A stretch of DNA of 64,000 nucleotides, taken from contig JACPGE010000070.1 in assembly GCA_016182605.1 (NCBI GenBank), forward strand, positions 1 to 64,000, in the 5' to 3' direction. Positions 58,407-60,492 of this stretch are shown here, one piece after another. The stretch's first letter is position 1, and the number at the start of each line of letters is the position of its first letter. The stretch comes from Candidatus Hydrogenedentota bacterium. GTDB lineage: Bacteria; Hydrogenedentota; Hydrogenedentia; Hydrogenedentales; JAEUWI01. Made by a program: the position numbers and the translations under genes. The notes beneath the pieces are model-generated. The model was not told where the DNA came from. It worked only from the letters and a program-made list of their open reading frames with translations, and ran no database searches.

Positions 58407-58988
58407 ATGCCATCACCTCCCCGGATTCTTGCCCTTGCCGGCAGCACCCGCAGCAAGTCGTACAACAAAGCTCTGGCCCGGGTGGCGGCGCACGCTGCGG
58501 AGGCCGCCGGCGCCACCGTTACCCTCATCGATCTGCGGGACTACCCCCTGCCGCTCTATGATGAGGATCTGGAGCGCGCGGAAGGACTGCCCGAAGCCGC
58601 GAAGCGACTGCGTGAGGTCTTCTTTGCGCACGATGGCCTCATTCTCGCCTCTCCGGAATACAACGGTGGCTACTCTGCCGTGCTGAAGAACACCATCGAC
58701 TGGCTATCGCGCCGCCAGGGGGACGAGGGTCCGCTCAAAGCCTTCGCGGGCAAGACGGTGCTCCTGCTGGCGGCTTCACCGGGCGCACTCGGCGGCATCC
58801 GCGTGCTCGCCCAGTTGCGCGCCTTGCTGGGCGGCATTCAGATGATCGTCCTCCCCGAGCAGAAGGCCATTCCCAAGGCCAACGAAGTTTTTGATCAGGA
58901 GGGCAATATGACAGATGAGGCAATCCGCAAGAGCATCGAAGGCCTGGTGAAACGCCTGGTGGATGTGACTGCGAGGCTCAAGGATTAG
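58407..58988 (+). CDS. NAD(P)H-dependent FMN reductase (flavodoxin fold)
   Basis: 193 residues. FMN-binding loop GSTRSKSYNKAL (12-23) and PEYNGGYSAVLKNTIDW (about 83-99), as in ChrR/AzoR-like reductases. It reduces flavins, quinones or azo compounds. AGGAG lies 9 bp upstream of the ATG. Confidence 0.9.
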   Translation: MPSPPRILALAGSTRSKSYNKALARVAAHAAEAAGATVTLIDLRDYPLPLYDEDLERAEGLPEAAKRLREVFFAHDGLILASPEYNGGYSAVLKNTIDWLSRRQGDEGPLKAFAGKTVLLLAASPGALGGIRVLAQLRALLGGIQMIVLPEQKAIPKANEVFDQEGNMTDEAIRKSIEGLVKRLVDVTARLKD

Positions 58989-59020: not shown

Positions 59021-59047
59021 TAAAGAAATCGGGCATCCTGCCGATAG
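59021..59047 (+). promoter_or_regulatory. sigma28 (FliA-type) promoter A
   Basis: TAAAGAAA at 59021-59028, exactly 11 bp, GCCGATAG at 59040-59047. The consensus is TAAAGTTT-N11-GCCGATAA. Three such promoters follow each other in 512 bp. Confidence 0.8.
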
Positions 59048-59054
59048 ACATAGC

Positions 59055-59236
59055 ACGAGGCTGAGACACGGAGGTCGAGGCGACAAAGGACACGGAGGTC
59101 CAGGCGGCGACGGGGTCCTTAAGACTAGATGAAACATCGGGGTGTCAATCCCACACCAACGCGACCGGTGATTCGTCCCAAAGTCTTTCTTTCCATGAGA
59201 AGCGCCATAACAACCTCTGTTGTGGCGTTTTCTTAT
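59055..59236 (+). ncRNA. Candidate small RNA A, CsrA-sponge-like
   Basis: Predicted transcript of about 180 nt from promoter A to the terminator at 59203. It has two ACACGGAGGT sites (59066-59075, 59090-59099), exact matches to the CsrA/RsmE target A-C-A-N-G-G-A-N-G-U. Each GGA lies in a hexaloop ACGGAG closed by GAC/GTC or GGAC/GTCC. The 3' half has GGGGTGTCAATCCC with a short ACACC partner. No reading frame fits. The TSS is estimated from the promoter. Confidence 0.65.
59203..59236 (+). terminator. Terminator of small RNA A
   Basis: A 9-bp stem (CGCCATAAC with GTTGTGGCG, one G-T pair), 7-nt loop, then TTTTCTTATTTT. Confidence 0.75.
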
Positions 59237-59258
59237 TTTAAATCCCCCGCACACCCAT

Positions 59259-59285
59259 TAAAGTTCTCTGGCGCGTTGCCGATAG
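59259..59285 (+). promoter_or_regulatory. sigma28 (FliA-type) promoter B
   Basis: TAAAGTTC at 59259-59266, 11 bp, GCCGATAG at 59278-59285. Confidence 0.85.
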
Positions 59286-59292
59286 ATCACAT

Positions 59293-59456
59293 GACGGCGC
59301 CAAGACATGGAGGTCGCGGCGATAAATCAGACACGGATGTCGACCATCGAATACCTGGATAGCTCACGGGGCGGCAGGATGCTGGACCAGCAGTGCGCGG
59401 CAGCCAGGAGACGTACTTATGGAAATGCACCATACACGGATTGTATGGTGCATTTT
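59293..59456 (+). ncRNA. Candidate small RNA B, CsrA-sponge-like
   Basis: Predicted transcript of about 165 nt. Two CsrA-type sites: ACATGGAGGT at 59305-59314 and ACACGGATGT at 59331-59340, each with GGA in an ANGGAN hexaloop closed by GAC/GTC. The spacing of 26 nt is close to that in small RNA A (24 nt), but the rest of the sequence differs, so the sites seem selected. Ends at a 13-bp perfect stem at 59423. Confidence 0.65.
59423..59456 (+). terminator. Terminator-like hairpin of small RNA B
   Basis: AAATGCACCATAC and GTATGGTGCATTT form a perfect 13-bp stem with a 7-nt loop. The T-run (TTTT) is inside the end of the stem, so termination may be incomplete. Confidence 0.65.
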
Positions 59457-59505
59457 CATGTTGTGCGCCGGCCAATGACGTGCCACGTTAATTTTTTGCG
59501 CCCAC

Positions 59506-59532
59506 TAAAGTTTCCCGGACATCTGCCGATAC
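59506..59532 (+). promoter_or_regulatory. sigma28 (FliA-type) promoter C
   Basis: TAAAGTTT at 59506-59513 is a perfect -35, followed by 11 bp and GCCGATAC at 59525-59532 (7 of 8 of the -10). Confidence 0.88.
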
Positions 59533-59539
59533 TACAGAG

Positions 59540-59667
59540 CATAAGGTAGAGACTAACCCCTGAAAAAGGGCGCTGGGGTGTAAATCCCAACACCGCTAAC
59601 CGGCGCGTGTCTCAGAATCTTACCTCCTTGAAGCGTCATAACCCGTTGGTTATGGCGCCCTTTTTTT
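59540..59667 (+). ncRNA. Candidate structured small RNA C
   Basis: Predicted transcript of about 130 nt. AGGTAGAGAC near the 5' end can pair with GTCTC and TACCT further on, enclosing GGGGTGTAAATCCC and its ACACC partner, a block shared with small RNA A (GGGGTGTnAATCCC). It has no GGA loop, so it is unlikely to bind CsrA. Ends at a strong terminator at 59633. Confidence 0.6.
59633..59667 (+). terminator. Terminator of small RNA C
   Basis: GCGTCATAACC pairs over 11 bp with GGTTATGGCGC, followed by CC and seven Ts. It ends 7 bp from the stop codon of the convergent PIG-L gene. Confidence 0.88.
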
Positions 59668-59674
59668 ATCCGTC

Positions 59675-60472
59675 TCACGCACCCTCAACCGCTGCGCTGA
59701 TCGACATCAGAAATTCTTCCAGGGCGCCCAGGCGCTCCACCCGAAACCGCTCCACATGCCGCCCCTCGTCATCGCAGGTGCTCGCCGTCACCCAGCCTGT
59801 TATCAGCGGCCGGGGATCGTTCTCGATAGCATCATTGACGATCTCCGAGCGGCGCCCCAGCGTTTCCAACTGCAATCGCATCTGGTGAAGGATGTGGCGC
59901 ACCATGGTGCCGTGCGCGCACACGGCGTCGATCTTCGATTGCAGGTACGGGGAAATCACTTCGGCGTGATTCGCATCTTCCTGCTGCCGGCTGAAATACC
60001 ATCGCTCGCCCACACTGAACGGGGCCAACCCCGCTTCCAGGTGCTCAGGATGATGCAAGTGAAAGCACGCAACCCAGAAGGCCTCTTGTGCGGCCCGCGC
60101 GCAAACAACGTGATCCTGGTTTTCTTCATAACGCGCGAAAGGGTCGAACGTGAAAACGGCAAGTGGCCGGTACTTGCGATAGAGGTAGACAAATCGCTCG
60201 CGCAACGCGATGCGATCACTGTCGCAAAGACAGTCCGTCTCGAAGCCCAGATCCTCAATGGTGGTGATACCGAGATGCTGTGCGGCGTCGCGCAACTGCG
60301 CGTGATTTTGCGCCTGCACCTCTGCGCGCGATCCCCGCATACCGTCTTTGCAGTCGTCCGTTACGTGCACCAGGATGGTCTCCCACCCTTCCGCATGGCG
60401 CTTGGCCAGGGTGCCGCCACAGAAAAACGCCGCGTCGTCCGCGTGCGGGCTGATTACCAAAGCGGTGGGCAT
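59675..60472 (-). CDS. PIG-L family (LmbE-like) deacetylase
   Basis: 265 residues with the zinc motif SPHADDAAFFCGG near the N-terminus and a later His in NQDHVVCARAA. It removes N-acetyl groups from amino-sugar compounds; the substrate is unknown. ATG 60472 with GGGGAG upstream. It is only distantly similar to the PIG-L protein at 38754. Confidence 0.85.
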   Translation of the reverse strand: MPTALVISPHADDAAFFCGGTLAKRHAEGWETILVHVTDDCKDGMRGSRAEVQAQNHAQLRDAAQHLGITTIEDLGFETDCLCDSDRIALRERFVYLYRKYRPLAVFTFDPFARYEENQDHVVCARAAQEAFWVACFHLHHPEHLEAGLAPFSVGERWYFSRQQEDANHAEVISPYLQSKIDAVCAHGTMVRHILHQMRLQLETLGRRSEIVNDAIENDPRPLITGWVTASTCDDEGRHVERFRVERLGALEEFLMSISAAVEGA

Positions 60473-60492
60473 GGAAGTTCTCCCCAAGGCAA

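Follow-up and report, generated by a model that had tools for sequence, protein, structure and literature searches.

A sigma28-type promoter array with predicted CsrA-binding small RNAs conserved in the Hydrogenedentales

Can a short intergenic region connect the flagellar sigma factor to the RNA-binding protein CsrA by way of small RNAs? The question is raised by a locus of a Candidatus Hydrogenedentota bacterium (order Hydrogenedentales), located between an FMN-reductase gene (58407-58988, plus strand) and a PIG-L-type deacetylase gene (59675-60487, minus strand) in the window, a stretch of 64,000 nucleotides of contig JACPGE010000070.1. An earlier note, made from the sequence alone, had read it as two tandem sigma28-driven RNAs forming a sponge for CsrA. 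In the literature, sRNA antagonists and FliW are viewed as alternative means of controlling CsrA, and the occurrence of BarA-UvrY shows a strong negative correlation with that of FliW (PMC4682653); a passage in PMC7652899 states that it 'remains to be determined' if any species uses FliW and sRNAs jointly. Here, a lineage with csrA and fliW also carries conserved, sigma28-driven RNAs with paired hairpins.

The exact pattern TAAAG-N14-GCCGATA occurs three times in the window. Both promoters of the earlier note are exact, but their number was too low, as a third exact copy, with a terminator hairpin of its own, lies downstream (Table 1). The 6.76-Mb genome contains nine exact copies in all, three of which fall within 511 bp at the array. 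Another stands upstream of a four-gene flagellin cluster in the same genome, the first gene of which matches Pfam Flagellin_N and Flagellin_C; since the pattern precedes this cluster, we regard it as the sigma28 promoter of the organism. The array and the flagellin genes thus have a promoter in common, and FliA is encoded in the genome, as expected of members of one sigma28 (FliA) regulon. Each promoter heads a non-coding unit closed by a hairpin and T-run; the terminator-like hairpins claimed after the first two RNAs were found, together with the one that ends the third. No same-strand gene follows the units, each of which would be released as a free non-coding transcript. A protein-coding reading was judged unlikely, as indels among the relatives are not multiples of three.

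Table 1. Features of the array (window coordinates; R1 and R2 are models of the two-hairpin module and of the 3' module, respectively)
Feature	Position	Strand	Description and basis
sRNA1 sigma28 promoter	59021..59046	+	-35 TAAAG 59021-59025, -10 GCCGATA 59040-59046; exact pattern
sRNA1	59053..59236	+	Start placed about 7 nt past the -10, end at terminator T-run; architecture common to relatives
sRNA1 CsrA hairpin 1 (predicted)	59060..59081	+	GCU-GA-GAC-[ACGGAG]-GUC-GA-GGC; alignment, pair counts; R1 E 1.1e-10 (training member)
sRNA1 CsrA hairpin 2 (predicted)	59089..59100	+	GAC-[ACGGAG]-GUC; motif, alignment, pair counts
sRNA1 3' module	59135..59170	+	Outer stem CAUCGG/CCGGUG, inner stem GGUGU/ACACC, UCCC loop, AACGCGA bulge; R2 E 2.8e-19 (training member), UCCC-hairpin enrichment
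sRNA1 intrinsic terminator	59200..59236	+	Hairpin and T-run in sequence
sRNA2 sigma28 promoter	59259..59284	+	Exact pattern match
sRNA2	59291..59458	+	Predicted ends; 3' module diverged, without UCCC loop
sRNA2 CsrA hairpin 1 (predicted)	59299..59320	+	GCC-AA-GAC-[AUGGAG]-GUC-GC-GGC; R1 E 2.6e-10 (training member)
sRNA2 CsrA hairpin 2 (predicted)	59330..59341	+	GAC-[ACGGAU]-GUC; motif, alignment, pair counts
sRNA2 terminator hairpin	59421..59458	+	Sequence and fold; loop holds a fifth GGA, ACGGAU 59436-59441
sRNA3 sigma28 promoter (third)	59506..59531	+	Exact pattern match
sRNA3, type 2	59538..59668	+	Without GGA hairpins; 3' module in common with sRNA1; R2 E 2.6e-13 (training member)
sRNA3 UCCC-loop double stem	59571..59605	+	Inner stem 59577-59594
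sRNA3 SD-complementary stretch	59619..59629	+	CUUACCUCCUU; precedes terminator, recurs before relatives' terminators
sRNA3 intrinsic terminator	59633..59668	+	Hairpin plus T-run

The four CsrA-type sites in ANGGAN loops that had been described are all present. The motif ACANGGANGT lies at 59066, 59090, 59305 and 59331; with six occurrences in the window against 1.2 expected, it reaches a count attained by none of 100 shuffles. In sRNA1 and sRNA2 alike, two ANGGAN-hexaloop hairpins stand approximately 24-26 nt apart. Minimum-energy folding is by itself insufficient to reveal these hairpins, and the single-sequence folds of both RNAs omit some of the 3-bp stems, which we accept because of the comparative evidence. 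The terminator hairpins may, judging from their loop sequences, provide additional CsrA sites; the terminator loop of one relative carries AGGGAU, much as that of sRNA2 carries ACGGAU. A further CsrA-type sRNA gene, with a TCAAG-N14-GCCGATA promoter and its own terminator, was noticed elsewhere in the same genome (G000:C103:22187-22272).

A search of 195 relatives with the promoter plus ANGGAN pattern yielded a recurring GGCCGAGACANGGA about 20 nt past the -10, in genomes of the same order only. Forty-two units align readily, with the first hairpin taking the form GCC-GA-GAC-[ANGGAN]-GUC-GA-GGC and the second GAC-[ANGGAN]-GUC. Two-sided changes are seen in six of the nine base pairs (1.4 expected in shuffles) and 98.4% of the cells pair, whereas slid partners do so in only 15-42%; the GGA triplets thus lie in hairpin loops maintained by compensatory changes, as in CsrA-binding sRNAs. 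The covariance model R1, trained only on sRNA copies chosen by promoter, has matches in 42 of the 68 genomes of the order, at one to four places each, so that promoter and GGA hairpins are kept together in related genomes, the conservation on which the earlier note had made its proposal depend. Outside the order it matched none of 318 genomes (386 searched in all, none of the outside genomes being of the same phylum). Because the training copies had been chosen by their promoters, the promoter test was limited to two-hairpin copies found later by R1 alone: in all 30, a sigma28 promoter with at most two mismatches stands where expected, against about 0.8% of random positions. The relatives are not fully independent, and the copies cover at least nine families. 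Some weaker R1 matches (E about 0.006; L223, L224) lie inside coding sequence and appear chance-like. Viral contigs contained no exact two-hairpin match and thus gave no indication that phages carry copies. In families f1 and f5, a gene with a truA-like C-terminus is often convergent with the array (L133, L137, L140, L148, L150, L152, L154), confirmed in L150 by Pfam PseudoU_synth_1; the array in the window is located elsewhere.

The assertion that the two RNAs otherwise differ is correct for sRNA1 and sRNA2, but sRNA1 and sRNA3 have a 3' domain in common. Behind the CsrA hairpins, 53 of 77 units have its UCCC-loop hairpin, where shuffles give 3.9, and ten other tetramers display no such excess. 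In a clean subset of the double stem, the selection of which for the motif favours the result, two-sided changes affect seven of 11 pairs (25 cells versus 7.8 expected). Directly before the terminator stands a pyrimidine stretch, often CUUACCUCC, complementary to a Shine-Dalgarno sequence. Pairing between this stretch and the GGAGGU loop of the same RNA was weighed and rejected, as copies with a GGAUGU loop keep the stretch in several relatives and no covariation is seen. R2 matches 42 genomes, the weakest matches probably being due to chance, and the loci checked have a sigma28-like promoter upstream, except L244, a place for which L203 displays a one-base variant (TAAAG...ACCGATA). Since R2 also picks up RNAs without GGA hairpins, such as sRNA3 and similar type 2 RNAs in other genomes of the order, these are molecules of two modules, one class of which lacks the CsrA module. 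The sRNA3 fold has z = -3.4. Given that the 3' module is present in sRNA1 and also in sRNA3, where CsrA hairpins are absent, the family probably base-pairs with mRNA ribosome-binding sites as well, and CsrA sponging may not be its sole task.

The flagellin leaders of the order resemble the RNAs of the array. CANGGA is located at the Shine-Dalgarno sequence of all 22 flagellin starts examined but of only 10 of 258 control starts; 18 of the 22, against two of the 258, are preceded by a hairpin of 3 bp or more with an ANGGAN hexaloop. Flagellin leaders are among the next-best matches of R1 (G034:C80, G027:C226 and, from the organism's own genome, G000:C12); the own-genome leader, GGCC-AA-UGC-[ACGGAU]-GCA-GA-GGCC, has the layout of the first sRNA hairpin. 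At least five flagellin genes are encoded in this genome. Across the order, the leaders display a double CsrA-like site composed of the upstream ANGGAN hairpin and CANGGAGG at the Shine-Dalgarno sequence (L218 3511-7277; L215; L255-L260).

Neither csrA nor fliA is located in the window, and the earlier note had called for a search of the genome for csrA, fliW and fliA; all are present, with csrA, in single copy, directly downstream of fliW. FliA scores 264 bits against an NCBI cut-off of 189.6, and CsrA scores 89 bits. Leu4 and Arg44 (L4, R44) belong to the RNA-binding surface of CsrA. Both are kept in an alignment to solved CsrA proteins, so that, judged from its sequence, the CsrA of this genome is competent to bind RNA. 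N55 and the C-terminal extension, features linked to FliW binding (PMC13407953), are present as well. Among the 38 good-quality genomes, csrA is present in 28 of the 29 that carry the RNA, and fliA likewise in 28, while eight of the nine without the RNA lack both genes (Fisher p = 1.6e-6 for each co-occurrence); over the full set of 68 genomes in the order, FliW is distributed likewise. One exception, G034, has the RNA and no detected csrA, and another, G044, has no fliA above the cut-off; incomplete assembly is perhaps the cause. Most genomes of family f11 are without csrA, fliW, fliA and the RNA together, although its genus g21 (G027, G034) retains fliA and the RNA, with csrA and fliW kept in G027 too; the pattern looks like the loss of an entire motility module.

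The array is not a multi-site sponge of the CsrB/RsmZ type, the RNAs with which the earlier note had compared it. At gathering and relaxed thresholds, no Rfam family scored above its cut-off; the best match from the Csr clan was RsmW, with 14.5 bits where 52 are required (E 6.7). Moreover, CsrB/RsmZ RNAs are characterized by more than four GGA hairpins, and the RNAs described here have two canonical sites each, the terminator loop of sRNA2 adding a third GGA. On both counts we therefore do not assign them to these families, although they may function similarly. Like CsrB/CsrC and RsmX/Y/Z of the gamma-proteobacteria, they are non-coding and expose GGA in the loops of hairpins to which CsrA is predicted to bind; unlike those, they have two sites rather than many and a sigma28 promoter in place of BarA-UvrY/GacA control, and FliW is present. 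A similar layout is that of the Campylobacter jejuni flaA leader, a sigma28-driven CsrA target and titrator whose two GGA hexaloops are separated by 21 nt, in an organism with FliW (PMC4894983), but that leader is part of an mRNA, whereas the array comprises separate, terminator-ended non-coding RNAs. CjNC1/CjNC4 (CJnc10/CJnc170) of Campylobacter are sigma28-dependent sRNA paralogs with complementarity to ribosome-binding sites (PMC4626219), yet they are shorter than 50 nt, described as base-pairing rather than CsrA-binding, different in sequence and structure, and from another phylum. The sigma28-dependent sRNAs UhpU, MotR, FliX and FlgO of Escherichia coli act on flagella (PMC10578931); unlike the array they are UTR-derived, and CsrA is unmentioned in the main text of that paper. 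McaS, a base-pairing sRNA of E. coli, is reported in a passage of PMC7652899 to bind and antagonise CsrA; no sequence or structure in common with the array was seen, the passage does not mention control of McaS by sigma28, and FliW is absent from the gamma-proteobacteria. In the open-access literature searched we found no sigma28-dependent sRNAs with CsrA hairpins and no description of a CsrA-binding sRNA in bacteria containing FliW.

Taken together, these results make it probable that the array is transcribed by sigma28, that its GGA RNAs, built like flagellin leaders, titrate CsrA beside FliW, and that the 3' module probably base-pairs. The binding of CsrA by the GGA hairpins is very likely; transcription, the decoy function and base-pairing are steps we infer. 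Upon completion of the hook, sigma28 would become active and the sRNAs would be made alongside flagellin mRNA. The paired hairpins of sRNA1 and of sRNA2 would together hold one CsrA dimer per RNA, so that CsrA would be titrated off flagellin and other GGA-bearing mRNAs and repression relieved, in addition to the action of FliW, while the UCCC loop and the CUUACCUCC-like stretch would base-pair with the ribosome-binding sites of mRNAs. The sigma28-to-CsrA circuit imagined in the earlier note gains support from the presence of csrA, fliW and fliA and from the conservation of promoter and hairpins, although the circuit itself would follow only by inference. A decoy with two canonical sites per RNA would require high RNA abundance, which counts against titration, and type 2 RNAs without GGA sites count against a role in CsrA binding alone and indicate that the family does something besides. 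A bolder version is a new two-module RNA class: one end, a mimic of the flagellin leader, catches the CsrA dimer and the opposite end base-pairs with Shine-Dalgarno sequences, so that sigma28 activation upon hook completion frees flagellin translation, silences other mRNAs and places CsrA under the joint control of FliW and sRNA. It is put forward tentatively, as a possibility that we rather doubt.

The strong enrichment and covariation of the UCCC-loop hairpin, its retention in type 2 RNAs and the example of CjNC1/CjNC4 (PMC4626219) could also be taken to mean that these are base-pairing sRNAs with CsrA as a partner, in which the UCCC loop and CUUACCUCC pair with Shine-Dalgarno regions and the GGA hairpins recruit CsrA for stability or delivery rather than to empty the pool. 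We consider this unlikely, as conservation of the GGA hairpins exceeds that of the 3' module, which sRNA2 and several relatives have lost, and the resemblance of these hairpins to flagellin leaders fits a decoy best. CsrA sites are common in leaders, including the flagellin leaders here, but the notion that each unit is a 5' leader of a downstream gene, an attenuator with CsrA acting at its terminator, appears very improbable in view of the terminator possessed by each unit and the lack of a conserved downstream gene in the same direction: the next gene in the window has the opposite orientation, and many relatives have a truA-like gene that runs towards the array. As for accidental GGA motifs and promoter-like words in GC-rich intergenic DNA, the single motifs are indeed short, and sRNA1 does not stand out by its minimum-energy fold (z = -1.4), but we give chance practically no credence, refuted as it is by lineage-wide conservation, covariation, fixed spacing and the absence of matches outside the order.

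If CsrA titration by the array is correct, passage of the flagellar checkpoint would be wired directly to the CsrA pool, a link from flagellar assembly so far undescribed in the literature searched. The likeness to flagellin leaders suggests how decoy RNAs may evolve from the leaders of their targets, and the small set of parts makes the question of FliW plus sRNA control testable in a laboratory host.

A sigma28 promoter also precedes the gene for a cysteine-rich protein of about 60 amino acids (MTVQCCVC...; L132, L144, L159, L161), a 61-amino acid stretch of which had no Pfam match; the Shine-Dalgarno sequence of this gene is inside GGACAAGGAGGUCC, a CsrA-type hairpin. In the organism's own genome, another sigma28 promoter (L222 2221-2320; G000:C34:46721) is followed by a leader with two GCC-AAGGAC-GGY hairpins before an ATG, and this gene is likely a further sigma28 gene under CsrA control.
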